In this document: one piece after another, positions 8,769 to 50,595 of the stretch | Numbering within the stretch: position 1 is the first letter of the stretch | Layout of the letters: each line of letters starts with the position of its first letter | Origin: Nitrospirales bacterium | Lineage (GTDB): Bacteria > Nitrospirota > Nitrospiria > Nitrospirales > UBA8639 | Length of the DNA stretch: 51,098 nt | NCBI GenBank assembly: GCA_029261235.1 | Contig: JAJDBS010000238.1 | Span: 1 to 51,098 of the forward strand | Reading direction: 5' to 3' | Program-made: the position numbers and the translations under genes | The notes under the pieces: model-generated | Database searches by the model: none | The model's input: only the letters and a program-made list of their open reading frames with translations | What the model was told of the DNA's origin: nothing

Positions 8769-8856
8769 GTAAACATGAGAAGCAAGAGTGAGTCGTTAGG
8801 AGTGAGGGTGTGAAGAACATGACTGACGGTGTTGCTCCTGATTCCTTACTTTTCAG
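8769..8856. repeat. degenerate heptamer spacer repeat (weak copy)
   Basis: A purine-rich stretch containing GAGTGAG, GTTAGGAGTGAGG and GTGTGAAG is followed by CTCCTGATTCCTTACTTTTCA, its rough complement. It is the first member, from the left, of the 7-bp-unit inverted spacer family that recurs through the window. Confidence 0.5.
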
Positions 8857-8862
8857 ATTCCG

Positions 8863-9090
8863 TTAATTGGACGAAAGGCTCTCGGCTGGTTGTGTGTGTT
8901 GGGTGAGACCTGGGTAATCAACGCCGATTGGGGCATTTGAACAGTATTGTCCCCACCATTGAATGACTTCCTGGAGGAAAGGATCTTCTGGTCCAGTCGC
9001 GAAGAGGTGGCCGTAAAGATATCCTGTTTGAGTATCAAATAAGATGAAAATTGGCATAGATTCTGATTCTGGTTCTGGAAGAGTGTCCAT
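8863..9090 (-). CDS. small hypothetical protein
   Basis: A 75-residue frame on the minus strand, isolated between + strand genes. Its composition looks more protein-like than the overlapping alternative frame: after an acidic start (DTLPEPESESM) comes the hydrophobic strand PIFILFDTQTGYLYGHLF, then FLQEVIQWWGQY and a polar tail. No family is recognised. The ribosome site before ATG 9090 is weak; an internal Met at position 12 is another possible start. Frame quality is the only support, so it may not be expressed. Between it and the next gene at 9387 I see no further gene or clear promoter. Confidence 0.35.
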   Translation of the reverse strand: MDTLPEPESESMPIFILFDTQTGYLYGHLFATGPEDPFLQEVIQWWGQYCSNAPIGVDYPGLTQHTQPAESLSSN

Positions 9091-9386
9091 ACGTTCTCGT
9101 GTTTCATCAGGCCATAAATTTTATATTCATTCCATGCTGTATTGAAACTTGTCGGTTATCGGGCGGTGTTCCTTAAGGCAGGGCCGTGAGGAACCAGGGA
9201 AGATAGCGGGACTCTTGCCAGAAAGCGTGAAAAAGTGCATGCTTAGGATAGGGAAATCCAGCTACTTCAGGAGGGAAATCTTCTGGCCTTTCTTGACCTC
9301 CTCTATGAAATGAGGTAGCTATGGCCTGGGTTTCGTGACTGGTTCAATCAATGAGTAGGGTAATTGAGTTGTGATGGAGGGTATTC

Positions 9387-10847
9387 ATGGAAACGACAGC
9401 ATCTGAGGTATCCGTCGCTCATAGGGTGACTGGCAAAATTCTTTTAGTTGAAGATGAACGCGATGTTCGAGAAACGATCAAGCTTCAATTAGAAGATGAA
9501 GGACACGAAGTCACCGAAGCTGGTACTGGAAGAGACGCGTTAGCACTGGCAGAATCTCAGCCCTTTGATATTGTGTTGACCGATGTCATGATTCCGGGCA
9601 TCAATGGTTTTGAGCTTGTTCAGAAGATGAATGAATGGCCTTCACGTCCAGTCACGTTGGTCATGACCGGCTATGGGTCCGTCGAGATGGCGGTGAACGC
9701 CATCAAAGCCGGTGCATTTGATTTCCTCTCCAAACCTTTTTCCGTAGATGTGTTGAGCGCCACTGTGGCCAGTGCCTTGCGAGTGAAATCTCTGCAGGAT
9801 GAAAATGCGGAACTCAAAAAAACGGTCAAAGGCCAATTTAGTTTAGGAAAATTGGTGAGTACCAGTCAGGTGATGAAAGAAGTATTTCAACTGATCGATT
9901 GTGTCGCAGACACAGATAGTACCGTGCTCATCTTGGGTGAAAGTGGGACGGGCAAGGAGCTCATTGCCCAAACGCTTCACTGTAATAGTACCCGCAGACG
10001 AGGAAATTTAATTCCGGTGAATTGCGGAGCGATTCCTGAAGCCCTATTAGAAAGTGAGTTGTTTGGTCATGAAAAAGGGGCTTTCACGGGCGCGGTGGCG
10101 GCTCGAGTCGGTCGTTTTGAATTAGCCACAGGAGGAACGATTTTCTTGGACGAAATCGGAGATCTGAGTCCTCCGCTTCAAGTCAAATTACTTCGTGTCC
10201 TTCAAGAACGGACGTTTGAACGAGTCGGTGGGACTCGAACATATAAATCCGATGCGAGGGTTGTGGCAGCGACGAATCAAGATCTTGAGAGTTTGGTCGC
10301 AGCGAAGCAATTCAGGGAAGATCTTTTCTATCGTCTGAATGTGGTTCCTATCCTTGTTCCACCCATGCGGCAGCGAGTTGAAGATATTCCGCTCTTGTTA
10401 CAGCACTTTATCGATATGTTTAATGATCGTCGAAAAGCGGAGATTACTGGGGTCGCAGATCATGCCATGGCTTTACTGTGTGAGTATCCGTGGCCTGGAA
10501 ATGTGAGAGAAATCAGCAATATTGTTGAACGTATTGCTATCTTGAAACGACGAGGCCAGATTGAGCCTGAAGATTTGCCAGAAAAAATCCGTCGTCTGCC
10601 ATCGGACCATCTTCCCACGATGTCCGCAGCCATTCCCATAGGCGGATTGGACCTGTCACGAGCCGTGGAAGAATTTGAAAATCGGTTGATTCTCGAAGCA
10701 CTTGAACGAACCAATTGGGTGAAAAGTAAAGCCGCGCGTCTCTTACAGATCAACCGCACGACGCTCATTGAGAAGTTGAAAAAGAAATCTCTCGCCGAAG
10801 TGGTCGCTCAACGTGCCACTCCACCTGAAGACCTGGTTGACGCCTAA
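9387..10847 (+). CDS. NtrC-family sigma-54 response regulator
   Basis: A 486-residue bacterial enhancer-binding protein with three domains in order. The receiver (about 17-130) has acidic pocket VEDE and phospho-acceptor Asp66. The AAA+ domain (about 155-390) has Walker A GESGTGKE at 184-191, GAFTGA sigma-54 contact loop at 231-236, and LDEIGDLSPPLQVKLLRVLQ. The C-terminal Fis-type helix-turn-helix reads WVKSKAARLLQINRTTLIEKLKKK. It would activate sigma-54 promoters when phosphorylated. ATG follows GGAGG. No kinase gene is adjacent; the nearest is at 13295. Its position just before the TPR/kinase/regulator set and two sigma-54 flagellar promoters suggests a flagellar role, unproven. Confidence 0.93.
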   Translation: METTASEVSVAHRVTGKILLVEDERDVRETIKLQLEDEGHEVTEAGTGRDALALAESQPFDIVLTDVMIPGINGFELVQKMNEWPSRPVTLVMTGYGSVEMAVNAIKAGAFDFLSKPFSVDVLSATVASALRVKSLQDENAELKKTVKGQFSLGKLVSTSQVMKEVFQLIDCVADTDSTVLILGESGTGKELIAQTLHCNSTRRRGNLIPVNCGAIPEALLESELFGHEKGAFTGAVAARVGRFELATGGTIFLDEIGDLSPPLQVKLLRVLQERTFERVGGTRTYKSDARVVAATNQDLESLVAAKQFREDLFYRLNVVPILVPPMRQRVEDIPLLLQHFIDMFNDRRKAEITGVADHAMALLCEYPWPGNVREISNIVERIAILKRRGQIEPEDLPEKIRRLPSDHLPTMSAAIPIGGLDLSRAVEEFENRLILEALERTNWVKSKAARLLQINRTTLIEKLKKKSLAEVVAQRATPPEDLVDA

Positions 10848-10930: not shown

Positions 10931-11048
10931 GGCGTGAGAAGATCATCTTCACGAGCAAGAGTGAAGAACAGTTTCTCAGTTCATCTCTTTTTCCCCCTCT
11001 TCCTCTCCTGACTCCTGACTCCTGATTCCTAACGCCTTACGCCTTCAA
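10931..11048. repeat. gap 10848-11232: heptamer-type spacer and short palindrome
   Basis: The 385-base gap holds no credible gene. CGTGAGAAGATCATCTTCACG-like dyad symmetry lies at 10933-10953. A pyrimidine-rich run follows with repeated units CTCCTGA, CTCCTGA, TTCCTAA, CGCCTTA, CGCCTTC at about 11005-11047. These are the complement-strand form of the 7-bp-unit family; the matching purine arm is missing or decayed here. No promoter could be assigned with confidence. Confidence 0.5.
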
Positions 11049-11232
11049 ATCAGCTTGAATTTTTGACCCTTCCGTCAACCTCTTGACGCCGGCAGTTTCT
11101 TCCGAGTTCTTGTTTCTGGCAAAAATCCCTCGTGTTTACAACAAATTTTCCGGTCGGTCTTTTTGAGCCAGGTAATAAATACTCGGGTCCGATTTTTGCT
11201 GAATAGACCTTCAGGTGGAGGGCATACAGAAC

Positions 11233-16266: not shown

Positions 16267-16388
16267 AGTGAGAAGTAAGTAGTAAGGAGTGAAAAGGAAA
16301 AAATGGGAAGTTGGAAATGAAATGGAGAGAATGAACGTTAGCCTGTTCTTTATTCTTGCTACTCACTTTTTACTTCTCACTTCTCATT
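16267..16388. repeat. heptamer inverted spacer repeat between flgB and flgC
   Basis: Purine arm at about 16268-16297 built of GTGAGAA, GTAAGTA, GTAAGGA, GTGAAAA units. Pyrimidine arm at about 16359-16386 with ACTCACTTTTTACTTCTCAC followed by a further TTCTCA. They are roughly complementary and could fold the flgB-flgC spacer into a long hairpin. The flgC ribosome site (AAAGGAG) begins 9 bases after the second arm. Confidence 0.75.
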
Positions 16389-16862: not shown

Positions 16863-16998
16863 CAGTGAAAAGTAAGAAGTAAGAAGTAAGAAGTAAAAAG
16901 GGGAAAGTAAGAAGTGACACGAAAGAAGTCACCAAGTAGGAAAGATTTTTCTTCTTTGGGTCTATGCTTTTACATCTTACTTTTACTTCTAACTATTT
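16863..16998. repeat. heptamer spacer repeat between flgC and fliE
   Basis: The clearest tandem form: GTGAAAA, GTAAGAA, GTAAGAA, GTAAGAA, GTAAAAA in a row from 16865, then GTAAGAAGTGACAC. A pyrimidine arm TTTTACATCTTACTTTTACTTCTAAC closes the spacer at 16969-16994. The period is exactly 7. Confidence 0.75.
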
Positions 16999-17012
16999 AG
17001 GAAGGAAAATTT

Positions 17013-27518: not shown

Positions 27519-27521
27519 ACA

Positions 27522-27606
27522 AGTGAAAAGTGAGGAGTAAGGAGTTATGACAAGGAGTGCGGAGATGACTCAGAAATATTTGTCTCCTTACTCCTCACTT
27601 TTCACT
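27522..27606. repeat. perfect 23-bp inverted spacer repeat between fliL and fliM
   Basis: The best copy of the heptamer family. The arm at 27522-27544 (AGTGAAAAGTGAGGAGTAAG, then GAG) is exactly complementary over 23 bases to 27584-27606, with 39 bases between. Extra, less exact units flank it (GGAGTTATGACAAGGAGTG; TCCTTACTG). The right arm ends 18 bases before the fliM ATG, which has only a poor ribosome site. Confidence 0.9.
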
Positions 27607-27624
27607 CCTTACTGATGTAAGAAT

Positions 27625-28611: not shown

Positions 28612-28671
28612 GTTGTCAAGCCTCATGCGAACATGACATGGCCACGAATGCAGAGAACATGGAGATGAGAC

Positions 28672-30574: not shown

Positions 30575-30598
30575 CAAATATTTTCGAGGACGAAAATC

Positions 30599-30868: not shown

Positions 30869-30872
30869 GAAC

Positions 30873-30975
30873 AGGAAGTCGTAAGGGGTGAAAAGTGAAA
30901 AGTGTTAAGACCAGCTTCCTACATTGTTTTTTAGATCTCCTGCCCCTGACTCCTTACGCTTCACTTCTTACCCTT
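30873..30975. repeat. heptamer inverted spacer repeat between fliQ and fliR
   Basis: Purine arm at about 30873-30910 (GAAGTCGTAAGGGGTGAAAA, then GTGAAAAGTGTTAAG). Pyrimidine arm at about 30936-30973 (CTCCTGCCCCTGACTCCTTA, then CGCTTCACTTCTTACCC). They are partly complementary, with shared GTAAGG and GTGAA units. Confidence 0.7.
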
Positions 30976-31001
30976 TTTTCTCTAAGGAAATGATGTAACC
31001 G

Positions 31002-32859: not shown

Positions 32860-32860
32860 A

Positions 32861-32980
32861 AGAAGCAAGGCGTCAAGCGTAAGGCGTGAGGGAGGAAGAC
32901 ATCAGGCGTAAAGAAAAAGACGAGGGATTTCCAGGGAAGACGATATTTCGCCTCACGCTTTACGCCTGACGCCTTACGGG
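32861..32980. repeat. heptamer inverted spacer repeat between flhB and flhA
   Basis: AAGGCGTCAAGCGTAAGGCG and continuing to 32891 (arm 32867-32891) is complementary to 32951-32975 with two mismatches in 25. The inner part has another GGCGTAAAG unit. This locus uses CGTMARG-type units, unlike the AGTGARG units before fliM. Confidence 0.88.
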
Positions 32981-33047
32981 GATGATGAGAAGAATTGGGA
33001 AATACATTGACCACATTTGCGATATCCATCGCTAGCTAGGAAACCAG

Positions 33048-37418: not shown

Positions 37419-37421
37419 CGA

Positions 37422-38222: not shown

Positions 38223-38224
38223 AC

Positions 38225-38344
38225 GTGAGGCACAAGGCTTAAGGAGTGAAAAGTAAGATATACGCAACAGATAACAACGTCCTCATAACGATTGCTTTGC
38301 TCCTAACGCCTTACTCTTTACTTCGTACTGCTTCCGCCTCATGT
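38225..38344. repeat. heptamer inverted spacer repeat after fliA
   Basis: Purine arm 38226-38258 (GTGAGGCACAAGGCTTAAGG, then AGTGAAAAGTAAG) and pyrimidine arm about 38310-38342 (CTCCTAACGCCTTACTCTTT, then ACTTCGTACTGC...CGCCTCAT). The arms share GTGAGGC, AAGGC and GAGTRAA units. It fills the spacer before the partner-switching genes. Confidence 0.72.
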
Positions 38345-38431
38345 CGAACCTTTTTTGTTCCGCTGCTTGAGTTTTCGTGTGAATACACCGAAAAAAATTA
38401 GAGTCGTCTTCTGTTAACAAATGGTCCTGCG

Positions 38432-39679
38432 ATGAATGTGATAGAAACAAACAATCCAATTGAAATAGTGCCTGATCAATCTGCTCAAAAGGGCAGTCCC
38501 TATACGATATTGCTTGTTGATGATGAAAAGCTCGTACGAATGGTGGCCAAACGACGTCTCAATAAACTGAATCATCGCATGCTTGAGGCAGAGAATGGTA
38601 AAGAGGCTCTGGCTATTCTGGAACATGAAAAGGTGGATTTAGTCCTGTCCGATTGGATGATGCCTGAACTGGATGGTCCTGGTTTGTGTGAGGCCATGAA
38701 ACAGGATGACCGATTTAAGTCGATCCATTTCATTCTCATGACCGCATTAGATCAACCCTCGCAAATAGCCGAAGGGCTGACTCGAGGGGCCGATGATTTT
38801 TTGCCAAAGTCGGCGTCCGATCAAGAAATCCTTGCCCGAGTGTGCGCAGGTCTTCGCGCACGGCAATTGTTTTTGGATCTTGAAGAATCGTATCACGTCA
38901 TCACAGAAAAACAGACACAACTCGATAATGAACTCAATTCGGCTTCAGAATTTGTGCGGTCCTTGTTACCTCAGCCAGGAGAAGTGGCGTCAGGGATACG
39001 GTTATCATGGGAATTTCTCCCGTCTTCACAATTGGGCGGAGATTTATTCCAAGTGGCGGAATGGGGCGATGATCATCTGGGGATCATGGTGTTAGATATG
39101 TCAGGACATGGGACGGGACCAGCGTTACGCGCGGTCTCCCTGGCCATGTGGTTTAAAGGCGCAAACATCGCGCAATTGTTCCCAGATTTTGATCCTGGCC
39201 AGATTGTGACACAGCTCAATGCTGAGAATCCGATGACGGATCAAGGCGACTATTTCACCATCTGGGTGGGGGTGCTTCAGCATTCAACGGGTATTCTTCG
39301 TTATGCCAGTGCAGGGCATCCTGGCTCAATTTTAGTGAGGAATAATGCTCCCTCCGAGGTGCTAGGAACGAAATCCTGGCCAACAGGATTTTCACCTGAT
39401 GAAATCTATCATACGGACTCCATTACTTTGATGAACAAGGATCGGCTCTATTTATATAGTGATGGGATCTACGAAGTCGTGAACGCCGAAGACGAAATTT
39501 GGGGAAAAGAGCGGTTACAGGCCGCCCTAGAACAGGTCTACACACGTTCAATGAAATTGGGCCTCAAAAGCCTGATTCATTTGAGCCGCGCCTGGCAGGC
39601 TGATGGCATATTTGGAGATGACGTGGCCTTGATTGGGCTAGAATACAACAGAGAAAATAGTGAAAAGCGAGAAGGATGA
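38432..39679 (+). CDS. response regulator with PP2C (SpoIIE/RsbU-type) phosphatase output
   Basis: A 415-residue two-part protein: CheY-like receiver (about 24-145, VDDE pocket, phospho-Asp74, Lys126), a short coiled-coil linker (about 148-172), then a PP2C-type serine phosphatase (about 180-405). Metal-binding motifs are LGGDLFQ (Asp204), DMSGHGTGPALRA (222-234) and GDDVAL near the end. Such proteins remove phosphate from a STAS-domain antagonist when their receiver is phosphorylated. A matching kinase and STAS proteins are encoded next. The last seven codons (NSEKREG) are made from a spacer repeat. No separate promoter was identified. Confidence 0.9.
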   Translation: MNVIETNNPIEIVPDQSAQKGSPYTILLVDDEKLVRMVAKRRLNKLNHRMLEAENGKEALAILEHEKVDLVLSDWMMPELDGPGLCEAMKQDDRFKSIHFILMTALDQPSQIAEGLTRGADDFLPKSASDQEILARVCAGLRARQLFLDLEESYHVITEKQTQLDNELNSASEFVRSLLPQPGEVASGIRLSWEFLPSSQLGGDLFQVAEWGDDHLGIMVLDMSGHGTGPALRAVSLAMWFKGANIAQLFPDFDPGQIVTQLNAENPMTDQGDYFTIWVGVLQHSTGILRYASAGHPGSILVRNNAPSEVLGTKSWPTGFSPDEIYHTDSITLMNKDRLYLYSDGIYEVVNAEDEIWGKERLQAALEQVYTRSMKLGLKSLIHLSRAWQADGIFGDDVALIGLEYNRENSEKREG

Positions 39680-39776
39680 AGGTAGAACTGAGTGAGGAAA
39701 TCAAGAGGAAGAGGGCAAGACAAGAGTTGAAATCTTTTCTATTCTCGCTCCTTACTTCTCACGTTTCACTTTAGAA
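39659..39776. repeat. heptamer inverted spacer repeat overlapping the phosphatase stop
   Basis: Left arm from 39660 (GTGAAAAGCGAGAAGGATGA, then AGG) begins inside the last codons of the phosphatase gene. Right arm 39747-39774 (CTCGCTCCTTACTTCTCACG, then TTTCAC) is its rough complement: read on the other strand it starts GTGAAACGTGAGAAGTAAGG. Confidence 0.75.
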
Positions 39777-39793
39777 GATTGAATGAACGACTG

Positions 39794-40747
39794 ATGAGTA
39801 ACGAATACCCTCGTATCCTGATTGTTGATGATGATGATCTGAACTTGGACGTCCTGATTGAATGTCTGAAGGATGAGCCTTATGAACTGGTGCAGGCTCA
39901 CGATGGCGCTCAAGCGTTAGAGCTTTTACGCCAAGATCGGCATGGATTTAGCGCCATGATTCTGGATCGTATGATGCCCGGAATGACTGGCCTCGAGGTG
40001 ATGGCCACGTTGAAGGCTGATGAAGAGTTTAAATGGATACCGGTGGTGATGCAGACGTCAGCAGCTTCGCCGAGTGAAATCTGCGAAGGCATGGAAGCAG
40101 GAGTTTTTTTCTACCTGACCAAGCCGTATGACCAACAGGTCCTCATTCGCATGGTCCATGCAGCGGTACAGGAAGGGCTGAAATGGAAGAGCTTCGCGCG
40201 CAGCTTGCACGTCCAGGTCAACACGATAGGATGTCTGCAACAAGGGCGATTTCGCGTGCGCACGATAGACGAGGCCTTTGATCTCGCTCTCTTAATCGCT
40301 CAAGCCTGTCCGAATTCAGAGAAAATAGCCTTTGGCCTCAATGAATTGATTGTGAATGGGGTTGAGCATGGCAATTTGCATATTGGGTACGAGGAAAAAA
40401 CCATCCTTCAAGCGACTGATCAATGGGAAGCTGAAATAGCTCGTCGGCAATTATTGCCCGAATATGAGCATAAATTTGTCGAAATTACCTTTGAGCGCGA
40501 TCCTGAAAAAATCCAGTTGATCGTGACCGATCAAGGCCAGGGGTTTGATTGGAGTGACTTTGAGGAAATCAAAGCGTCACGACTGCTTGAAAGCCATGGA
40601 CGAGGCATTGCGATGGCCAAAGCCTTGAGCTTTGATCACCTGGAATATCAGGGAAATGGCAATCAAGTGTGCTGTCTCGTCTATCTTAAAGATCCGCGAC
40701 CTCTTCAACAGCATACGTGTCAGGAATTGGTAGGGAAAGAACAGTAA
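39794..40747 (+). CDS. response regulator with RsbW-type HATPase kinase domain
   Basis: About 317 residues: CheY-like receiver (1-125, VDDDD pocket, phospho-Asp58, Lys110) and a C-terminal GHKL ATPase domain of the anti-sigma/RsbW type. GHKL motifs are FGLNELIVNGVEHGNL (N box, 181-195), DQGQGFDW (G1) and ESHGRGIAMAKAL (G2). There is no HisKA dimerisation helix, so it should be a serine kinase for STAS proteins, not a histidine kinase. ATG 39794 is chosen; a TTG at 39779 is also in frame. Between a PP2C phosphatase and two STAS genes, it is the kinase half of a partner switch. Confidence 0.88.
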   Translation: MSNEYPRILIVDDDDLNLDVLIECLKDEPYELVQAHDGAQALELLRQDRHGFSAMILDRMMPGMTGLEVMATLKADEEFKWIPVVMQTSAASPSEICEGMEAGVFFYLTKPYDQQVLIRMVHAAVQEGLKWKSFARSLHVQVNTIGCLQQGRFRVRTIDEAFDLALLIAQACPNSEKIAFGLNELIVNGVEHGNLHIGYEEKTILQATDQWEAEIARRQLLPEYEHKFVEITFERDPEKIQLIVTDQGQGFDWSDFEEIKASRLLESHGRGIAMAKALSFDHLEYQGNGNQVCCLVYLKDPRPLQQHTCQELVGKEQ

Positions 40748-40919
40748 ACGCTTACGGCATACTGGTTATGGCACAAGTGAGTGGTCACATTTCAGGACAG
40801 GACATTCCTTCTCCCGAGTTTCATCCCCATCGACATTTCATCTCAGAAGGTCTGACGTGCAGGAACGAGATGCTCCGTGGATTCGTCAAAAACTTATAGC
40901 CGCATAGGAATGATGTTGA

Positions 40920-42164
40920 ATGAATATTACGAAGCAGGTGTCTGCGGGGAAATTGGTGTTGACCTTGACTGGTCGGATGGACTTTCATGCTCGACATTCT
41001 TTTCATCAGGCGATAGCAGACGCAAAAGGCTCTACGCCTCAGCAAATTTATCTCAACTTGTCTGATGTTCCCTTCATTGATAGTGCAGGCTTGGGCTTGC
41101 TCATGTTAGCACGGAACACGTTGGGAGAGGCCAACATTGCTCTTTCCCTGCAGGTGACTGATGGGTATGTCAGGGATGTGTTGACTTTAACGCACCTTGA
41201 TCAAAAAATTCCAATCACGGTCATCAAACCTAAAAAGGCCCATAAGACAGTGGTCCTTTCTCATTTGCCAGTCGCCCCTCTTGTTCATGCTCCCCTGAAA
41301 CCTCCTTTGGTCTTTGAGTCGGTGAAGATGCAGGAGCGGCTACTCCCAATTTTAGAAAAATTGGAAGAGAAGAATTTGGACTTCCCGCCTCTTTCTGAAG
41401 TTGCTCGTCGCGTCCTGGAACTGACAAATGACCCCGAGGCCCATGCAAGTGACTTAACAGCGTTGATTGAAGGCGATCCTATTCTTACGGCAAAAATCTT
41501 TAAAGTGAGTAATTCTGCGGCATATGGAACTCGAAAGGAAATAACGTCCTTACCACAGGCTATTGCCAGGCTTGGGTTAAACTCCATCGCAGGGATTGCA
41601 CTGGCGTTAGCCATGCAAAGTGGCGCTTTTCATGATCGTGGGTATGAGAGAGAAGTCCGTGAAATATGGGCACATGCCATTGCAACAGCCCTCTACGCGA
41701 AGGCTCTGGCTGGCGTAATTAAGAGGAATTCAGACACGGCATTTCTCTGTGGGTTGTTACATAGCCTCGGGAAGCTCTTTGTGGTGCATACGGTCAATCA
41801 AAGTTTGCCGTGTGAGTCTTCACCGATTTCATGGTCAATGATGCTCACGCTCATAGAGCAATCATATATTGAAGTGGGTCGGCAAATGGCTGATCAGTGG
41901 AATTTTCCGGCTCCAGTAAAAGAAGCCATCAACCTGCATCAGCATTATTCCTATCACTTAGCAACAGATCCATCGAAAGGGGCGGCGCTCACCTGTCTTG
42001 CTAGACATATGGCGACGTACCATTTAGATTCTGTTGCGATATCTGATGACATGTTACGAGTTCTGCCTGTAACGACTGCACTCCAAATCCCTCCGGACGC
42101 TATGGCTGGCATCCTAGAGACCAAATCAAAGATTCAGTCTCAGATTGACGCCTTACTCATCTGA
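40920..42164 (+). CDS. STAS-HDOD fusion protein
   Basis: A 414-residue fusion. Residues 1-105 are a STAS (anti-sigma antagonist) domain with LVLTLTGRMDF, IYLNLSDVPFIDSAGLGLL; Ser55 in DSAGLG is the usual phosphorylated serine. After a proline-rich linker, about 140-340 is an HDOD domain: FPPLSEVARRVLELTNDPEAHASDLTALIEGDPILTAKIFKVSNSAAYG, SLPQAIARLGLNSIAGIALALAM, and FLCGLLHSLGKL. The HD pair is degenerate (HS), as usual for HDOD. STAS-HDOD fusions are not a standard RsbV form. It is preceded by the phosphatase and kinase genes, so Ser55 is the likely shared substrate. No strong ribosome site is seen. Confidence 0.9.
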   Translation: MNITKQVSAGKLVLTLTGRMDFHARHSFHQAIADAKGSTPQQIYLNLSDVPFIDSAGLGLLMLARNTLGEANIALSLQVTDGYVRDVLTLTHLDQKIPITVIKPKKAHKTVVLSHLPVAPLVHAPLKPPLVFESVKMQERLLPILEKLEEKNLDFPPLSEVARRVLELTNDPEAHASDLTALIEGDPILTAKIFKVSNSAAYGTRKEITSLPQAIARLGLNSIAGIALALAMQSGAFHDRGYEREVREIWAHAIATALYAKALAGVIKRNSDTAFLCGLLHSLGKLFVVHTVNQSLPCESSPISWSMMLTLIEQSYIEVGRQMADQWNFPAPVKEAINLHQHYSYHLATDPSKGAALTCLARHMATYHLDSVAISDDMLRVLPVTTALQIPPDAMAGILETKSKIQSQIDALLI

Positions 42165-42264
42165 GATTGGTGTTCATCACTCACAGTGAACATGGTTTGA
42201 GCTGATCTGCCAGATAGATCGCGAAGAAGCAATTAGACGATTAGAAATGTTGACCAATGCCTTC

Positions 42265-42369
42265 GGCTGCGTTCCCTTCCAACGTCGGAGCGGCTTCGCA
42301 CAGGCAGGTAGCCATTTGGCCGTCCTCACGTACTGGAAGTACGCTCCGCGCATCCAAATAACTGCAGCC
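42265..42369. repeat. nested palindromic element in the 530-base gap 42165-42694
   Basis: No gene is supported in this gap. CGTACT-GGA-AGTACG (42329-42343) is a perfect short palindrome at the centre. GGCTGC at 42265 and GCAGCC at 42364 are complementary ends, and GGAGCGGC/GCTCCGCG lie between. The flanks (TTGCTGAATAAATTTTTTGA) resemble ends of dispersed noncoding palindromes I recall from environmental genomes that also have a GCGTAC...GTACG centre; that family link is memory, not a search. Confidence 0.5.
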
Positions 42370-42694
42370 TTGCTGAATAAATTTTTTGACCACTCCGTCA
42401 GCAACTGATGCCAAGACGTGTTGGGAGTTTGTACGGGTTATTTTCGGGAAACATTCAACAATTCATATTGAGGTTTGGCGATGTATGAGGGGTCCAGTTA
42501 GAGGCTAAGAAGATGAGTCATCGTCCTCAGAGGAAGATCTTGAGTTTTTGTAGAAAGTTTTTTTTACATTCTAAAGTCCCGTCCTGAAGATTCCGAAAGG
42601 TTCTTGAGCCTAGATTGATTGAGCCAATTATTGATGGCATTAAGGTAAATAGATAGGGCTTCACGATTAAGTTTAGCACGGAGTCATTTTTAGG

Positions 42695-43042
42695 ATGAAA
42701 AGTACGAATCCAAAGAAAAAACCAAGGGGAAAAATGAAAAACGAACCAGAGCAAGACGGAAGCGCAGTTGCGACAGATGCAACCTTAAAACCCATCGGAG
42801 ATTTGACGATCTTTGAAGCTGGTCAGTTTCATGAAGATCTGAATGCTCTTTATAAGCAAGAGGGCCCATTGGAACTAGATTTATCGGAAATCGATCGAAT
42901 GGATTCCTCATGCGTCCAGCTCATTGTGGCTGCCACTCGTTCTGGCCGACTGACCTTAAGAGGCTATTCAGCTCAAATCCGAGATCGTTTTGAACAAATA
43001 GGGTTTTCACAGTTTCTTTCAAATGAGCAGTGCGTCTCATAG
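42695..43042 (+). CDS. stand-alone STAS domain protein
   Basis: A 115-residue protein whose lysine-rich head is followed by a STAS domain: LKPIGDLTIFEAGQFHEDLNAL, LELDLSEIDRMDSSCVQLIVAATRSGRLTLRGYSAQIRDRFEQIGF. Ser71/Ser72 occupy the phosphorylation position. It is closer to the MlaB/chemotaxis-associated type than to RsbV. GGAG at 42680-42683 is 11 bases before ATG 42695; ATG 42734 (after AAGGGG) would give 102 residues without the basic head. It lies between the STAS-HDOD gene and an MCP gene, so it may link the partner switch to chemotaxis. Confidence 0.85.
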   Translation: MKSTNPKKKPRGKMKNEPEQDGSAVATDATLKPIGDLTIFEAGQFHEDLNALYKQEGPLELDLSEIDRMDSSCVQLIVAATRSGRLTLRGYSAQIRDRFEQIGFSQFLSNEQCVS

Positions 43043-43098
43043 AGAAATTGGATCACGTTTATTGTAGTGCGATAAGAAATAATGATGAGAGGTGACAT

Positions 43099-44235
43099 GT
43101 GGTGATTGATTGGATGATCTGGGGAGCACTGCTGCTTGTTGGAGGTGGTGTCGGCTATGTCCTGGGCGGGCGAACAGGGCAATCTCGCATTGGTGATCTT
43201 GAGCAGAAAATTCGTGAAGCCAATGAGACACTGGCCAATGCCCAACAGAATTGGAAAGAATTTTGTGGGTGCCTTGCCCCGATGCTGCCTGTCTATGTTG
43301 GCCAATTAAAGGCGGTAATTCAAGAAACAGAAACAGCGTCGGCTGGTTTGATTCAGCGGTTTCAAAAAATTTCGCAACAAGCTCGAGAATCAGCATTTGA
43401 AACAGAAACAATTCTCAGCATGGGTGAAAGTGATGGGGATGATGGGATGAGTGTTGAAGCCATTCTGAATAACACGAAAGACACCATGCAAATGTTTGTC
43501 GACCAAGTCACACAAACGTCAACCGTCACCGTATCGACGGTGAACGTCATGGAACAGGCCTTAGATACCACGTCTCGAATTTCTGAAGTGGTGGAAGAAG
43601 TCGAATTCATTGCGGATCAAACGCGATTGTTAGCGTTGAATGCGGCGATTGAGGCCGCTCGGGCTGGCGAACATGGTCGAGGATTTGCGGTGGTTGCCGA
43701 TGAGGTTACCAAACTGGCGAATCGATCAGGCCAAGCTGCCGAGCAAATTCGTGCCTTAGCGACAGAGGTAAAAGGGACAACGGAATCTGCCATGTCAGAA
43801 CTAGAAGTTTTAGCTTCGTTAGATCTAACGTCGACATTAAGCGCACAACAGAAGATCATGGCCATGACGGAAGTCATGGTCTCAAAGAATTCCGCGTTGA
43901 AAGAAAGCGTGGGGCAAAATTCTGGCCGCGCCAAGGGACTTGGCCAGGATATTGGACAAATTGTGATGTCCATGCAATTCCAAGACATTACGCGCCAGAA
44001 ACTAGAGCATGTGTATCAACCGCTTGAGAGCATTCATGGCCCTTTGCAAGCTGTGGCAGACGGTTCAAGTGGAACGGACACCATGCCAGCAATCATCGAA
44101 GAACTTCGTGGACTCAAGCATGGTTCGAGTATGGAATCTGAACGGCTCACAATTGAGGCCGCGCAGTCTGGAGAAGCAGCGGTCCTGGTTGGAACTGGTG
44201 GAGACGCTGAAGAAGATACCGTCACCTTATTCTGA
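43099..44235 (+). CDS. methyl-accepting chemotaxis-type protein without sensor domain
   Basis: A 378-residue receptor-like protein with one N-terminal membrane segment (about 4-24, [21 protein letters not shown]). It then has a coiled-coil cytosolic domain. No periplasmic or HAMP domain is present. The signalling tip is clear: [52 protein letters not shown] (key [15 protein letters not shown]). [20 protein letters not shown] near the end is found in similar short receptors. It starts at GTG 43099 (AGAGGTG site). It stands 56 bases after the STAS gene and before cheY, so its input may come from another protein. Confidence 0.88.
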
Positions 44236-44418
44236 AACCGTGTGGCGATAAAGGACGTGAATCGAAAAAGACGCGAGGGGGACGTCAGAAGAAATAGGTA
44301 AATTGACGCAAAGAGTAAGAGAAGCGAAAACACGCCTTACACGAAAATATTTCTGAATGAATCAAGATGAAACGAGTGACGCAACATACAGCCAAACCGA
44401 CAACAGAGAGGGAAGATT

Positions 44419-44790
44419 ATGGGTAAGACCGTATTAGTGGTGGATGATTCCGTTTCCATGCGGCAAATGGTGAGTTTTACACTCACAGGGGCAGGGTATG
44501 AAGTGGTGGAAGCTGGCGATGGGAAAGAAGCCGTCGATAAGTTAAACGGTGGAGCCAAACCCAATTTAGTGATTACTGATCTAAACATGCCGAATATGGA
44601 TGGTATTTCGTTGATCAAAGCCATCCGGGGAATGGCCCCACATAAATTTACGCCAATTCTCATGCTGACCACAGAATCATCGGATGCCAAAAAGAAAGAA
44701 GGGCAAGGAGCAGGAGCCACAGGCTGGGTGGTGAAACCCTTCAATCCCGAACAAATGCTCGCCACTATCAAAAAAGTCATGCCGGGCTGA
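44419..44790 (+). CDS. cheY: CheY, single-domain chemotaxis response regulator
   Basis: A 123-residue receiver without output domain. It has acidic pair DD at 9-10, phospho-acceptor Asp54 (VITDLNMPNMDG), MLTTESS and VKPFNPEQ with the conserved lysine. CheY-P binds FliM (LSQDEVDALL peptide encoded at 27637) to change rotation. The spacing and position before cheA and cheW support the chemotaxis role. GAGGGAAGATT precedes ATG. The 183 bases before it hold no gene; a spacer repeat follows. Confidence 0.94.
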   Translation: MGKTVLVVDDSVSMRQMVSFTLTGAGYEVVEAGDGKEAVDKLNGGAKPNLVITDLNMPNMDGISLIKAIRGMAPHKFTPILMLTTESSDAKKKEGQGAGATGWVVKPFNPEQMLATIKKVMPG

Positions 44791-44898
44791 AGAAGGGAGA
44801 AGGGAGAAGTAAGAAGGGAGAAGTGAAAAGAGCAATGATCAAGAGTCCAAGTATCATCTCTTATTGCTTTTTACTTTCTACATCTAACTTCTCACTGT
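44790..44898. repeat. heptamer inverted spacer repeat between cheY and the four-helix gene
   Basis: Purine arm 44790-44839 (GAAGGGAGAAGGGAGAAGTA, then AGAAGGGAGAAGTGAAAAG) and pyrimidine arm 44856-44896 (ATCTCTTATTGCTTTTTACT, then TTCTACATCTAACTTCTCAC). Approximately complementary; the pairing includes AAAAGAGCAAT with ATTGCTTTT. Confidence 0.78.
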
Positions 44899-44902
44899 TC
44901 CC

Positions 44903-45265
44903 GTGGATAAACTTCATAAGAAATTAAACGTGTGGCAAAAGGCGATGGATTTGGTGTTGATCGTGTATGAAATCAAAAAAAATTTCCCGGCTTCTGAAAA
45001 GTATGGATTGACGGGCCAGATGCGAAGGGCAGCAGTGAGTATTCCCAGTAACATAGCAGAAGGAGCCAGTCGTCGGAGTAAAAAGGAATTTAGTCAATTT
45101 CTGTATGTAGCCAAAGGCTCATTAAATGAATTGGACACACAACTGGAATTAGCTAAACGGCTGAACTATTTCCCTCTCATGCAATGGGAAGCCATTGATG
45201 AAAATATGGTGGAAATTGACAAGATGCTCAGTGGGCTTATTCGACACCAAAGAAAGGTGCAATAG
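44903..45265 (+). CDS. four-helix-bundle protein (23S rRNA IVS/S23 type)
   Basis: A 120-residue basic, all-helical protein of the S23/four-helix-bundle family often found in 23S rRNA intervening sequences and scattered in genomes. Signature parts: LNVWQKAMDLVLIVYEIKKNFP, EKYGLTGQMRRAAVSIPSNIAEGASRRSKKEFSQFLYVAKGSLNELDTQLELAKRL (key SIPSNIAEGASR and KGSLNELDTQLE). Function is unknown; related bundles bind nucleic acid, and Avd of diversity-generating retroelements is a distant relative. It starts at GTG with no ribosome site. It interrupts cheY-cheA and is bordered by spacer repeats on both sides, which points to later insertion. Confidence 0.93.
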   Translation: MDKLHKKLNVWQKAMDLVLIVYEIKKNFPASEKYGLTGQMRRAAVSIPSNIAEGASRRSKKEFSQFLYVAKGSLNELDTQLELAKRLNYFPLMQWEAIDENMVEIDKMLSGLIRHQRKVQ

Positions 45266-45289
45266 CAGTGTCAACTAATTCTCAAGAAT

Positions 45290-45331
45290 TCTTGCAATTA
45301 ACTTCTTACTTCTCACTTCTCACTTCTCACG
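45290..45331. repeat. heptamer pyrimidine arm between the four-helix gene and cheA
   Basis: TTAACTTCTTACTTCTCACTTCTCACTTCTCAC: four to five 7-bp units of the pyrimidine form, with no purine partner in this spacer. It repeats the arm found before the four-helix gene (44870-44896), so that gene is bordered by like-oriented copies. Confidence 0.75.
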
Positions 45332-45340
45332 AGGCAAAGC

Positions 45341-47443
45341 ATGGCTGTTGATCTTTCGCAATTTCAAGAATCATTTTTTACGGAATCTGCCGAGCATGTC
45401 GAAACCATGGAGACAGGGTTTTTGGAATTAGAAGAGCGTCCAGAAGATCTCGATCTCCTAAATCGTATCTTTCGAGCGGCTCATTCCATTAAAGGTAATG
45501 CGGGAATGTTCAATTTTGCGGAGATTGCCGGTCTTACCCATAAAATGGAAAACGTGCTGGATTTGATGCGGAATGAAGAGATACCAGTGACGCCGCATTC
45601 GGTGGATGTCCTGTTGCGCTCTCTGGATGGCCTCAAGAGTTTACTCGATGCGGCCCAAGGTGCAGGTGAGGCTGATCAAGAGATTATTCAAGGTCTTGAA
45701 AAGGAGCTACAGGCCTGTCAAGACGGCGAGAGAGGGAGTGAGGTCAGTGCAGCACCATCCTCAGCTGAGGAGACGGTGGCTCCACAGACCGCGATATGGC
45801 GTCTCATCAAAATTGATTGGATTCCGTTGCCAGAACTGTTTCAGCGTGGTTTGGATCCAGCGCAACTATTTAAAGAGCTTCATGAATTGGGCATGATCAA
45901 AGACTTGCAGGTACAAGTCGACAAGATTCCTTCCCTCGAGGCGATGGACCCTGAGGTGTGTTATTTGAGTTGGAAGCTCGAACTGGAAACGGATGTCTCA
46001 GTTGACAAGGTGGAAGCGGTCTTCGATTTTGTGCGAGACGGGAGTGAATTGACCATTACCGATTGTGCGCCGAAACAGGCGGAGCCCTATAAACGTGTGG
46101 GAGATATTCTTGTCGAAGAAGGTGTCGTCACCCCAGGAGAAATCTCGGATGGTCTCGCGAAGCAAAAGCCATTGGGAGAAATCTTGGTCGAAGAGAAAAA
46201 AGCGACACCAGAGCAAGTTGATAAAGCCCTTCAAAAACAAAAGCAACAGAAAAAAGGGGAAGTGGCCTCAATTCGAGTGGATACCGAAAAGATTGACAAG
46301 CTCATCAATTTGGTCGGGGAGTTGGTCATTACCCAATCCATGCTTACCGATTTAGGTGAAAAATTTACGATTGATCAATTGCCGGTTCTGCAAGAACGAA
46401 TCGTGCAATTGGAACGCAATACCCGTGAACTACAAGAACGGGTCATGTCGATTCGAATGATGCCGATTGGGTCAGCCTTTCATCGATTCCCTCGATTGGT
46501 CCGTGATTTATCCGGAAAGAGTGGAAAACAAATTCAGTTGGTCATGTCTGGCGAAGAAACGGAGCTGGATAAAACCTTGATCGAAGCGATCGGCGATCCG
46601 CTGACTCATTTAGTTCGTAATTCCGCAGATCATGGCTTAGAAGGCCCGGAAGAGCGCGTGGCGGCTGGTAAGCCAGAACGAGGCACCGTGCGTCTGCATG
46701 CATTCCATGATGGTGGCAATATTTGCATTGCGGTGGAAGATGATGGTCGAGGATTGAATCGTGACAGGATTCTCGCGAAAGCGATTGAGCGTGGACTGAT
46801 TGCCGATGGTAAGACGATGAGTGACGACGAGATCTATCAATTAATTTTCCGAGCCGGTTTCTCCACAGCCGAAACGATTACGGATGTGTCGGGGCGCGGC
46901 GTCGGGATGGATGTTGTGAAACGAAATATTGAAGGGCTCGGGGGATCTGTGTCGGTCCAGAGCACTCCAGGCAAGGGCTCAAAACTCACACTCAAATTGC
47001 CGCTGACATTGGCGATCATTGATGGGATGACCGTTCGAGTAGGAGAGGATAATTATATTATTCCACTCCTTACCGTCACCGAGTCGATTCGGCCAAAATC
47101 CAGTGATTTGCAGAGAATTGTCGGTAAAGGCGAAGTGGTGAATTTACGAGGAGAATGGGTCCCCCTGGTTCGTCTCTACGAAGTGTTTAATGTGACACCA
47201 GAATATACAGATCCTATGCAAGCCTTATTGGTTATTGTCGAAGTTGAAAATCGTCGACTGGCCGTCTTGGTGGACGAATTGACTGGTCAACAGCAGGTGG
47301 TGATTAAGACCTTGGAACAAAATTACCGGAAGGTCGAAGGCGTCTCTGGGGCCACCATATTGGGTGATGGCCAGGTGGCGTTAATTCTGGACGTACCAGG
47401 ATTGGCGAAGTTAGCTCGAGCCGAGCATACGGTTGCAGCATAA
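45341..47443 (+). CDS. cheA: CheA, chemotaxis histidine kinase, with extra repeat linker
   Basis: The central chemotaxis kinase. The 700 residues contain Hpt (1-110, phospho-His48 in FRAAHSIKGNAGMF), a P2-like region (about 148-245), two short units of a T2SS-E/MshEN-like motif (GDILVEEGVVTPGEI at about 253 and GEILVEEKKATPEQV at about 277), dimerisation helices from about 307 (IRVDTEKIDKLINLVGELVITQSML), the HATPase (LTHLVRNSADHG near 420, VEDDGRG near 465, GRGVGMDVV near 517) and a CheW-like domain from about 556. The repeat linker is not part of standard CheA. ATG follows ACGAGGCAAAGC. Confidence 0.95.
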   Translation: MAVDLSQFQESFFTESAEHVETMETGFLELEERPEDLDLLNRIFRAAHSIKGNAGMFNFAEIAGLTHKMENVLDLMRNEEIPVTPHSVDVLLRSLDGLKSLLDAAQGAGEADQEIIQGLEKELQACQDGERGSEVSAAPSSAEETVAPQTAIWRLIKIDWIPLPELFQRGLDPAQLFKELHELGMIKDLQVQVDKIPSLEAMDPEVCYLSWKLELETDVSVDKVEAVFDFVRDGSELTITDCAPKQAEPYKRVGDILVEEGVVTPGEISDGLAKQKPLGEILVEEKKATPEQVDKALQKQKQQKKGEVASIRVDTEKIDKLINLVGELVITQSMLTDLGEKFTIDQLPVLQERIVQLERNTRELQERVMSIRMMPIGSAFHRFPRLVRDLSGKSGKQIQLVMSGEETELDKTLIEAIGDPLTHLVRNSADHGLEGPEERVAAGKPERGTVRLHAFHDGGNICIAVEDDGRGLNRDRILAKAIERGLIADGKTMSDDEIYQLIFRAGFSTAETITDVSGRGVGMDVVKRNIEGLGGSVSVQSTPGKGSKLTLKLPLTLAIIDGMTVRVGEDNYIIPLLTVTESIRPKSSDLQRIVGKGEVVNLRGEWVPLVRLYEVFNVTPEYTDPMQALLVIVEVENRRLAVLVDELTGQQQVVIKTLEQNYRKVEGVSGATILGDGQVALILDVPGLAKLARAEHTVAA

Positions 47444-47571
47444 TAAGAAGTGAGAAGTAAAAAGAAGAAAGCGACATGTGAAAAAGAAGAAGCAGAAAGA
47501 GAATGCGAAGTAAGACTGAAATGAGTTGGTCTTTTTCTTACTTCTCGCTTTCTACTTCTCACTTCTTACTA
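47444..47571. repeat. heptamer inverted spacer repeat between cheA and cheW
   Basis: TAAGAAGTGAGAAGTA (47444-47459) is exactly complementary to 47553-47568; AGAAAGCGA/TCGCTTTCT and AAGAAAAAG-like parts extend the match inside. The loop is about 70-90 bases. Confidence 0.85.
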
Positions 47572-48168: not shown

Positions 48169-48314
48169 TTGAAGTGAAGAAGATACGATGGTGATGAGTG
48201 AAAACACAAGTCAAATTAGATGTAAGTAAGGATGTGCGGAAGGCGGATTGGTGACGGGCTTAATTCCGGTCACAAGACGCGTGCAACAAACTCTCAATCA
48301 AGGATGAACAGGTC

Positions 48315-50543
48315 ATGAACAATGTCGCGAGTAAATTTTTAAGTTGGGGTATTGCAGCCAAATTAGTCACCCTCTTTGTCATTTTCGGAGCGGTGCCCAT
48401 GGCAGCTGTCGGTTTGATTGCCTTTGGGGCGGCCGATGAAATGAAAGAGACGATTGGCGAACGATATATGAGTGAAGCGCAAACTCTCGCTGAGACCATC
48501 GATCGCAATTTGTTCGAACGCTATGGCGACGTGCAAGCCTTTGGGTTTAATGACGCCGTGACGCGGACGTCTCAATGGTATGACGACTCCGAATATAACG
48601 TGATCAGTCAAGTCATGAATAAAATGGCTAAAGCCTATGGCATCTATGATTTGTCTATGTTGGTTGACACAGAGGGCGCACTCATCGCGGTGAACTTCCA
48701 AAATGCGCAAGGCGAACCCATTGACGTGAAGTGGATGTTTAAAAAGAATTTCAAGGACACCGCCTGGTTTCAGGCATTAAAAGCTGGCAAGTTTACAACG
48801 AAAATGCCGTTTACGGCTCCCGGGAATGATATTTCATCTGGCACCTTTATTGGATATGTGCATGTTGATGAGGATGTCAAGCGGGCCTATGGTAATGACG
48901 GGTTGACGCTGGGCTTCTCGTCTCCGGTGTATAACGAAAACGGCACTGTTGTCGCGTATTGGTCGAATCGTGCGAATTTTTCCGTGATTGAGCAAATGTT
49001 TCAAGAGACCTATGCCAAACTCAAATCACTGGGCTTCCCAGGTGCTGAGTTAACCCTCGTAGATGCCAAGGGCCGAGTTCTTATTGATTATGATCCGACT
49101 ACAAATGGAACACTCGATGTTGTGCGCAACTTTGATGTGCTCATGAAACTCAACTTGGCGGAAAAAGGCGTTGAGTTAGCACAACAAGCCATCAAAGGGG
49201 GGGCGGGGTTTAGCACTGCGATGCATACCCGGAAGAAGATTTCTCAAATTGGTGGGTTTGCCCATTTAGATGGAGCCTTAGGCTATCCCGGGATGAATTG
49301 GGCTGTTCTCATACGAGTTCCCGAGATCGAAGCTGTGGTCGCCGCTAGTGCGGTGCAGAGCCAAGTCCTGATGACGGGTTTGATTTGTTTGACCCTGCTT
49401 ATCCCACTAGGCTGGTGGGTTGGCCGTAAAGGTGCGGGCAGCTTGGTGGCCATCAGCACAGTAGCGCAATCAGCAGCCGATGGGGATCTGAGTCAGCGAG
49501 TTCCGGTCACGAGCAAAGACGAGATTGGGCAATTGGGGCAATCGATGAACAGTATGTTGGATAACATCTCGAATGTGGTGGGCGAAGTGCGACAAGCAGC
49601 TGAGCATGTTTCCACAGCCTCGGGGGAAATTACGCAAGGCAATGAAGATTTGTCTCAACGCACGTCGGCCCAAGCCGGAGCTCTCGAAGAAACCAGTGCC
49701 TCGATGGAAGAGATGACGTCCACCATCAAACAAAATGCTGATAATGCCAAACAAGCCAATCAGTTGGCTGTGACGGCGCGGGAAGTGGCCGAAAAGGGTG
49801 GCGCGGTCACGGATAAAGCTGTCAATGCGATGGATGAAATCAACAAGAGCAGTAAGAAGATTGCAGATATCATCAATGTGATTGATGAGATTGCCTTCCA
49901 AACAAATCTATTGGCCCTCAATGCGGCGGTCGAAGCGGCTCGAGCCGGGGAACAAGGCCGTGGCTTTGCGGTGGTGGCTTCAGAGGTGCGGAACTTGGCA
50001 CAGCGGTCCGCGACTGCTGCAAAAGAAATCAAGACGTTGATCAATGAGTCCGTCCAAAAAGTTGGCGACGGCAGTGACTTGGTGAATCAGTCAGGTCAAA
50101 CATTAGAAGAAATCGTGAATTCGGTCAAACGAGTGACGGATATTATTGCAGAGATCAGTGCGGCTTCCCAGGAACAAGCGAGCGGCATTGATCAGGTGAA
50201 CAAAGCGGTGATGCAGATGGATCAGGGCACGCAACAAAATGCCGCATTGGTGGAAGAGGCCACGTCGGCTTCACAATCCATGAAGCAGCAGGCTGGATCC
50301 TTAATTGAACAAGTGGCCTTTTTTAAGATTTCAGAACAAGGGGGAGGGCAAGTGAGTCGAGGGACAAACAGCTCGACACGAGGGGCAACATCGAAGCCTT
50401 CGCTCATCTCTTCCAGCGCACAGACAAAGTCACCGAGCCCAGCGCGTATCCCAGCGAAGTCCGCCCCACAACCAGTTGGTGTGGGGAGTAGCAATGGGAA
50501 AGGTGATTCAAAAGGAGACGATGACTTCTTTGAAGAGTTCTAA
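48315..50543 (+). CDS. methyl-accepting chemotaxis protein with Cache-like sensor
   Basis: A 742-residue transmembrane receptor: TM1 about 11-37 ([29 protein letters not shown]), a periplasmic part of about 310 residues of double-Cache character ([54 protein letters not shown]), TM2 about 352-376, HAMP (about 377-430), and the signalling hairpin with tip [38 protein letters not shown] near 525-560. It ends DDDFFEEF, a possible variant of the C-terminal methylation-enzyme tether. The ligand is unknown. It follows cheW. Confidence 0.93.
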
Positions 50544-50546
50544 AAG

Positions 50547-50595
50547 GACGTAAGGCGTGAGGCGAAATATTCTTTGTCGCCTTACGCCTCACGGT
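50547..50595. repeat. heptamer hairpin after the Cache receptor gene
   Basis: CGTAAGGCGTGAGGCGA (50549-50565) pairs with TCGCCTTACGCCTCACG (50577-50593): 17 positions with one mismatch and one G-U, and an 11-base loop. It is a strong hairpin 5 bases beyond the stop; no T-run follows. Confidence 0.88.

Follow-up and report, generated by a model that had tools for sequence, protein, structure and literature searches.

The 51,098-nucleotide (nt) stretch analysed here (hereafter the window) spans positions 1 to 51,098 of the forward strand of JAJDBS010000238.1, which is contig C155 of the 4.17-Mb draft genome GCA_029261235.1 from a Nitrospirales bacterium (completeness, 82.8%). Genomes, contigs and loci used for comparison are denoted by G, C and L numbers. 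The window carries flagellar and chemotaxis genes, and many of its intergenic spacers contain short tandem arrays of a degenerate 7-bp motif, GTRARRM. The genes flanking these spacers are fliE, fliF, fliL, fliM, fliN, fliO, fliP, fliQ, fliR, flhB and flhA, together with genes for a sigma factor, cheA, cheW, response regulators and methyl-accepting chemotaxis proteins (MCPs). The identity of flhA was taken from its own sequence and from synteny. The nearest FlhA relatives are found in Nitrospirales metagenome-assembled genomes, the top one being L061 (98%), and the FlhA tree has only five starred branches. A complete element consists of a purine-rich array (R arm) followed by a pyrimidine-rich array (Y arm) that faces it, with a gap within 130 nt. 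Tandem GTRARRM pairs occur 27 times in the window, and 26 of them are intergenic. These 26 pairs lie within 32 spacers of at least 30 nt, compared with a mean of 0.025 and a maximum of 1 in 200 per-spacer dinucleotide shuffles. The heptamers recognised by the initial annotation in these spacers are therefore genuine, and an equal abundance in shuffled spacers, which it had named as a refuting outcome, is excluded.

Between a CheY-type gene and cheA, one inverted repeat encloses an open reading frame (ORF) at 44903-45265 on the + strand. The ORF starts with GTG and encodes a 120-residue protein matching PF05635 (23S_rRNA_IVP; E = 2.5e-41), a four-helix-bundle family also called S23p and referred to below as IVP. 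It has an additional bAvd-like match below the cut-off, and its nearest solved chain is 2gsc, XCC0516. An R arm at 44802-44829 and a Y arm immediately 5' of the ORF occupy 44802-44902, while a further Y arm lies 3' of the gene at 45303-45330. The repeats listed earlier as two copies, at 44790 and 45290, are thus the two sides of one ORF, and the IVP-family gene in this loop had been overlooked. It is the only window locus with IVP inside an inverted repeat; the other elements are ORF-less. This IVP gene is not located in a 23S rRNA gene, and no rRNA match was found in the window. Because array pairs enclose an IVP gene here and in many other bacteria, the repeats in the spacers resemble members, with no gene inside, of a widespread family that has attracted little notice.

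IVP matches are present in 181 of 295 Nitrospirota genomes (172 over the cut-off), with up to 11 copies. The flanks of 64 Nitrospirota IVP loci were compared by inverted complementarity between 150 nt upstream and 180 nt downstream, using a cut-off of z = 4. The set comprised 15 loci from relatives, 29 best matches and 20 extra Nitrospiraceae loci hand-picked before their flanks were seen; L293, the second piece of the L288 gene, was excluded. Inverted arrays surround IVP at 46 of the 64 loci, as compared with 7 of 152 control ORFs (odds ratio 53, p = 1e-24), and outside the genus of the window they are found at 45 of 56 loci in 34 of 41 genomes. At 58 of the 64 loci, the upstream array is a better match to the downstream array of the same locus than to those at other IVP loci. 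The dominant array period is 7 in 28 loci, 8 in nine, 9 in two and 11 in one. Period 7 also dominates in 35 of 300 control flanks, because these genomes are array-rich. By eye, the letters of the flanking arrays vary from copy to copy and include GTRARRM, TCAGCNN, GTAACRA, GGGTCCA, CACAGAGG and others. Arrays of 8-nt units, of the CACAGAGG and GGTGAAGG types, flank IVP at L294, L298, L314, L308 and L318, representing several families. Within the genus, a GTRARRM R arm upstream and a Y arm downstream bracket IVP at four of eight loci (in G000, G001, G002 and G009); L278 has a Y arm only, L287 and L289 an R arm only, and L288 neither. IVP identity correlates with array similarity across 63 loci (Mantel r = 0.42, reached in 0 of 999 permutations), a value inflated by the inclusion of orthologous loci.

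Beyond Nitrospirota, the survey covered plasmid and phage records. IVP was found in 43 plasmid records, mostly from Nostocales. Inverted arrays exceeded z = 4 at 12 of 14 plasmid loci (12 cyanobacterial, one from Gemmatimonadota and one from Alphaproteobacteria), the two below the cut-off both being cyanobacterial. Mismatched plasmid flanks exceeded it in 20 of 182 comparisons, because several plasmid arrays share letters. In plasmids of two cyanobacterial species (L360 and L365), the array-bounded IVP gene sits between cas6 and cas4, which may explain the reported association of IVP with cas genes. At another plasmid locus (L359), IVP lies between ribonucleotide reductase genes. The phage relatives, in three records, are Avd proteins of diversity-generating retroelements with 30% identity.

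The initial annotation had described about fifteen inverted repeats in the window. A full pair is present at 11 of the 15 sites (16267, 27522, 29216, 30493, 30873, 32861, 38225, 39659, 44790, 47444 and 50547), while the remaining four are incomplete. At 16863, a long R arm faces a Y arm that is degenerate; 45290 consists of a Y arm alone, and 8769 and 10931 each retain a single above-threshold Y arm with degenerate remains. The first of these degenerate elements (8755-8856; Y arm, 8843-8856) lies in the spacer preceding a sigma-54 activator gene, and the orthologous spacer of G014 (L208, 9909-9999) has a pair. Its arm at 8843 is the first in the window, in agreement with the reported absence of copies from 154-8754. 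The second (10931-11046; Y arm, 11027-11040) is, by eye, a possible relic of a dispersed core. The inward-facing pair at 16268-16387 (R, 16268-16302; Y, 16360-16387) is followed by the element preceding fliE (16865-16999), which has an R array at 16865-16920. Pairs then occupy the spacers of fliL/fliM (27523-27612, with 23-nt arms that are 100% complementary), fliN/fliO (29223-29271), fliP/fliQ (30494-30571), fliQ/fliR (30881-30971) and flhB/flhA (32872-32977, with C-type units and a loop common to L061). Further downstream, a pair is located 3' of the sigma-factor gene 37422-38222 (38239-38328), and another overlaps the 3' end of ORF 38432-39679 (39660-39769), providing its last codons and stop. 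The remaining two are found 3' of cheA, beginning at its stop codon (47443-47569), and 3' of an MCP gene, a short pair of C-type units (50550-50592). None of these elements matches Rfam. Intrinsic terminators, defined as GC-rich short hairpins followed by T-runs, are not recognisable either: none of 26 terminator-like hits fell on an element of 27400-47399 in a scan limited to loops of 3-8 nt, in line with the earlier statement that the repeats are not ordinary terminators.

The segment 16340-16384 is a degraded core that matches, at 87%, the core of a dispersed family resembling miniature inverted-repeat transposable elements (MITEs). This family (L169-L194, in G000 and G005) has copies of about 200-230 nt that enclose a heptamer pair and a core between outer inverted ends of the GGGAATGKTSAAAAAA type; among the elements as a whole, such ends were observed only in this subfamily, of which 15 copies were aligned. 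When used as a query, a 104-base sequence matched 11 places in each of two genomes, in some cases through the arms only. Two other window segments, 42165-42694 and 11040-11100, resemble the outer ends by eye (TTTTTTGACCACTCCGTCAGC, TTTTTGACCCTTCCGTCAAC) and suggest old copies.

The polarity of the elements is nearly invariant. Among neighbouring arms within 130 nt, counted over all loci examined with duplicates removed, 124 are R-Y, 20 R-R, 15 Y-Y and two Y-R, and hence opposite-sense neighbours face inward in 124 of 126 cases. The purine-first order noted previously was confirmed, whereas its relation to the direction of transcription is uninformative: an R-Y inverted repeat reads R-first on either strand, so the polarity belongs to the element itself. 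Placement relative to genes is likewise biased. In 92 codirectional cases, the element starts at a median of 9 nt past the stop codon, lies within 20 nt of it in 61 (overlaps included), and is closer to it than to the downstream start codon in 69, distances to the start being underestimates since the first possible start codon was taken. The commonest offset is -4 (8/92), and the array often provides the stop of the gene. A stop-codon cassette was considered, in that positions T2-R3-A4 read TAA or TGA and three units would stop all frames. It was rejected as a general reason because the sister heptamer of f17 genomes, RTGMRRA (mostly TGC), is stop-free and also pairs inward. In f17 genomes G034 and G066, RTGMRRA has 100 and 122 triple hits and GTRARRM three and zero, respectively; an inward RTGMRRA pair lies at L230, and other cases follow from listed coordinates.

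Genome-wide, the arms form an intergenic paired family rather than low-complexity noise, as the initial annotation had anticipated. Pairs occupy 8 of 22 codirectional, one of two convergent and one of two divergent spacers in the window (simple ORF calls), compared with 5 of 137, 0 of 33 and 0 of 36 in a 428-kb sample elsewhere in the genome; the density described for the window is therefore real. Of 28 distinct sites with three perfect units, five are in the window, which makes up 1.2% of the genome. A second chemotaxis contig, C241, has pairs in 9 of 21 codirectional spacers, and contigs of G014 also bear pairs in flagellar and chemotaxis regions. A link to flagellar function was nevertheless rejected: the two contigs with flagellar and chemotaxis genes, in which 17 of 43 codirectional spacers hold pairs against 5 of 137 elsewhere, were noticed through their hits; C32, the sole MCP locus picked regardless of hits, is without arms; and flhA loci in eight genomes of other families gave 2 of 44 against 0 of 47. 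Any flagellar enrichment is therefore at most genus-level or regional. At L217 (C193), L081 and L121, pairs are also seen among tryptophan genes (alpha/beta synthase; glutamine amidotransferase/chorismate-binding) and in a spacer that separates a chorismate-binding gene from one for an aminotransferase, the latter pair occurring in G000 as well as G005. In G000, the contigs C38, C203, C213 and C250 have arrays about 1 kb or less from their ends; heptamer arrays may therefore break this assembly and be undercounted.

Comparison of orthologous spacers (at least 40 nt; three distant loci excluded) revealed that arms recur at the same sites with turned-over letters. Arms are present in 45 of 70 orthologous spacers where the window spacer has them and in 4 of 39 where it does not (p = 2e-8), the four exceptions all being at 44236-44418. 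Between the window and L061, for which four-fold site identity is 0.74, eight element spacers are 0.48-0.75 identical over the longer sequence, compared with 0.73-0.96 for seven arm-free spacers with one exception at 0.44; two further spacers are too short in L061. In fliQ-fliR, the unit letters of both arms differ between L062 and L063, whereas their flhB-flhA elements can still be aligned. Empty sites were also identified. Only 8 nt separate flhB from flhA in L065, L070, L073 and L077. At 39680, there is no gap between the genes of L062, L073, L077 and L080, which abut or overlap, and L061 has a short pair-free spacer; a heptamer element occupies this site in the window, L066, L067, L069 and, in decayed form, L072. 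No loop orthology between clades exceeded z = 4 (0/37). In the L061 spacer orthologous to 38223-38431, the heptamer CGCCTAA is repeated perfectly about a dozen times, while the window has an ordinary pair there.

IVP copy number and array number are related among Nitrospiraceae genomes. IVP copies correlate with GTRARRM counts across 78 Nitrospiraceae (rho = 0.66, phylogeny only partly controlled) and within three genera (0.51, n = 39; 0.57, n = 16; 0.95, n = 10). A second array family, TCAGCNN, was first found beside the IVP copies of G160, G133 and G238. In 32 hand-picked genomes, for which a reversed-pattern control gave 0 or 1, its triple hits reach 120 in G160, 83 in G085 and 75 in G244, and are lacking in G000, G005, G014, G007, G266, G025, G068, G170 and G214. 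Among 26 hand-picked Nitrospiraceae, the median count is 18.5 with IVP (n = 18) and 2.0 without it (n = 8). These arrays also form inward pairs (eight S-A, no A-S and one S-S). Of 16 TCAGCNN loci, seven have an inward pair 22-90 nt apart and eight a single arm; at the last, L355, the pair is 388 nt apart and encloses an IVP gene. Since L355 is the same place as L328, one of the loci from which the pattern was derived, it serves as an example rather than an independent test.

The inverted arrangement could be read as intercistronic RNA stem-loops that protect upstream 3' ends or mark processing, with pairing under selection, as in the mRNA stability or processing role suggested initially. The placement of many elements in operons just past stop codons (61/92, as above) fits such a role, as does folding far below shuffles in several cases (e.g., z = -8.1 for 27519-27624). 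Yet the tolerance of G-U over A-C mismatches, the signature of pairing in the RNA strand, is absent from 79 codirectional elements aligned without bias (173 G-U, 170 A-C), which are the ones expected to be transcribed. The 44 elements outside codirectional gene pairs lean the other way, with 134 G-U and 103 A-C mismatches (p = 0.051). An arm fits its own partner better than it fits other arms of the same genome in 53 of 117 cases (p = 0.79), in 38 of 83 by energy and in 29 of 64 by simple matches, against 9 of 11 in the window, an excess that the earlier reader's choice of clear cases may explain. In the flhB-flhA element, a difference of one unit between L062 and L063 is found in each arm, which favours maintained pairing, whereas folding of the fliP-fliQ element is lost in L070, L071, L072 and L077 (z = -0.3, 0.3, -0.5 and 0.0). 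The conserved feature is the motif skeleton G1-T2-A4, which is constrained beyond pairing needs and equally in both arms, the 5' and 3' arms having an identical motif profile. In the right arms of 15 MITE-frame copies from G000 and G005, positions 1, 2 and 4 differ from the consensus at 1 of 177 sites and positions 3, 5, 6 and 7 at 20 of 236, compared with 114 of 653 in the core and 84 of 592 in the outer end, at least one copy pair being orthologous. In six close orthologous-spacer pairs, the skeleton changed at 49 of 504, other motif positions at 167 of 703 and non-arm columns at 832 of 4676, each pair being counted in both directions so that the effective numbers are half. Hence the hairpin is probably not the selected feature, and we regard selected RNA stem-loops as most doubtful. 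A strand-symmetric constraint on a degenerate motif at a fixed 7-nt spacing suggests instead recognition at the DNA level. Neutral slippage, in which heptanucleotide microsatellites grow through polymerase slippage and gain inverted partners by template switching with no trans-acting factor, appears quite unlikely. Between close relatives, indels of exactly 7 nt (11) are more numerous than those of 6 nt (six) or 8 nt (five), multiples of 7 show a modest excess (16 of 126 indels against 1 of 31 in arm-free spacers), long perfect arrays exist in C38, C64 and C70, and a 7-nt polymerase idea has been published (PMC4692102). Still, within arrays of six units or fewer, neighbours resemble each other no more than units drawn from different arms do (identical in 0.042 of cases in the own genome and 0.041 across all arms), and thus the arrays are not fresh slippage products; the skeleton constraint, the single polarity (124 to 2) and the association with IVP also speak against slippage.

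A different question is whether IVP matters to the arrays at all. It could be a passenger tolerated inside arrays spread by another factor, such as a MITE transposase or the partner of a reverse transcriptase. IVP does resemble Avd, which partners a reverse transcriptase, arrays without a detected IVP exist, and the G000/G005 subfamily (15 aligned copies with outer inverted ends) has a MITE-like form that includes the heptamer pair; yet the core of that family is matched by a single window copy, at 16340-16384. The Y1 transposase PF01797 occurs in 24 of 30 relatives, array-free ones included, so that its presence does not track the arrays, and mobilisation by Y1/RAYT was rejected accordingly. 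In addition, IVP is array-enclosed in three other phyla too, and 7 of 152 control ORFs exceed z = 4. We therefore consider the passenger explanation rather unlikely.

On balance, we lean slightly towards regarding the elements as one array-bounded family, with or without an IVP gene. At either end, a degenerate 7-bp motif (GTRARRM in the window) is repeated in a short tandem array, and the two arrays face inward; ORF-bearing members enclose a single IVP gene, and most members, including those in the flagellar spacers, are gene-less. IVP, a pentamer in the solved homologue, may recognise the letters of its own array and act in trans on ORF-less copies. Together with host replication or repair functions, it could drive the spread and renewal of copies, gene 3' ends being sites where copies are tolerated and the hairpin a by-product of two inverted arrays. 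Among the options offered initially, small mobile or conversion-driven elements fit best. Several observations weigh against this array-bounded family. Within the genus, flanks exceed z = 4 at one of eight IVP loci, that of the window itself; only 4 of the 20 extra Nitrospiraceae loci have GTRARRM arms in both flanks; and IVP copies of a single genome bear arrays of several letter types. Among 20 same-genome pairs, IVP identity and array similarity give rho = 0.21 (p = 0.37). The copy-number correlation is not significant in the family of the window (rho = 0.28, n = 35) or in f17 (0.41, n = 14). IVP is undetected in 5 of 13 array-bearing relatives (G008, G010, G011, G012 and G014; completeness 92, 81, 84, 73 and 84%), present in 3 of 16 array-free ones, and found in G025 without a TCAGCNN triple; the correlations could reflect IVP as a frequent array cargo, or shared ancestry. 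Besides the own-partner excess in the window, a by-product hairpin is at odds with an arm-to-arm correlation of units at position 7 (r = 0.54, against 0.34 under within-genome permutation, 8/2000) and at positions 5-6 (0.45 against 0.28, 25/2000), with none at position 3. IVP is not known to have a catalytic domain. The array architecture, the skeleton constraint and the link of IVP genes to inverted arrays are direct observations, whereas mobility and binding of the arrays by IVP are what we infer from these patterns. We nevertheless propose that the flagellar-spacer repeats and the IVP-bearing intervening sequences belong to one element class. More tentatively, and with less confidence, this class could be an unrecognised, widespread type of bacterial mobile element with inward 7- or 8-nt arrays, with or without IVP. 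IVP would serve as the specificity factor: each type would read the letters of its own arrays and multiply the ORF-less copies in trans. The intervening sequences of 23S rRNA, the Xanthomonas and cyanobacterial heptamers and the cas-locus IVP genes would be instances, and Avd a relative.

Small dispersed inverted repeats in intergenic regions are also characteristic of REPIN/RAYT systems and MITEs. Unlike REPIN/RAYT, the window elements have heptamer-array ends and do not track a Y1 transposase, while one subfamily lies within a MITE-like unit. A closer likeness is seen in Xanthomonas, where GGGAATC/(GGGANTN)n heptamers form 70 (Xcc) and 75 (Xac) convergent inverted pairs, mostly at the same genes in both species and variable in length and sequence, with the function left open by those authors (Rehm et al. 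2015, PMC4692102). Both systems have a degenerate 7-nt intergenic unit in convergent pairs near the upstream stop codon, and both recur at the same genes in relatives with variable letters (45/70 against 4/39 for the window set). The Xanthomonas repeats have other letters and form G-quadruplexes (PMC4692102); with regard to G-runs, the unit profile of the window family has G at position 7 in 8-11% of units. The accessible part of that paper makes no link to IVP, though X. campestris encodes the homologue XCC0516 and is the source of the S23p structure. TAACTGA heptamers of Beggiatoaceae, Cyanobacteria and Bacteroidetes are likewise intergenic, tandem and patchy across phyla, but they are direct repeats of an invariant unit upstream of start codons, with one inverted case in 170 sets (MacGregor 2015, PMC4679880).

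With respect to IVP itself, its homology with Avd is already published, and 23S_rRNA_IVP genes near cas4 and cas6 have been listed among CRISPR-Cas-associated functions (PMC3936711). The plasmid loci L360 and L365 resemble the latter, with the difference that both are bounded by inverted heptamer arrays. Among open-access titles and abstract openings, a pool mostly outside subscription journals, no report joining IVP genes to dispersed heptamer arrays was found, a weak indication of novelty. Two long-standing questions may turn out to be the same: the dominance of heptanucleotides among long bacterial simple repeats (Mrazek et al. 2007, as cited in PMC4679880) and the function of IVP/S23p. If IVP-bearing and ORF-less arrays form one family, both become testable, and the reported cas-locus IVP genes gain a simpler explanation. 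In the literature available, the nearest precedent is the 23S rRNA intervening sequence of Coxiella, in which tandem heptameric repeats, varying in number between strains, lie upstream of the S23p ORF (PMC4990558). Such intervening sequences share with the window element an inverted repeat enclosing an IVP ORF; the known cases reside in 23S rRNA, from which RNase III excises them (PMC4990558), whereas the window elements lie between protein genes and are mostly ORF-less.

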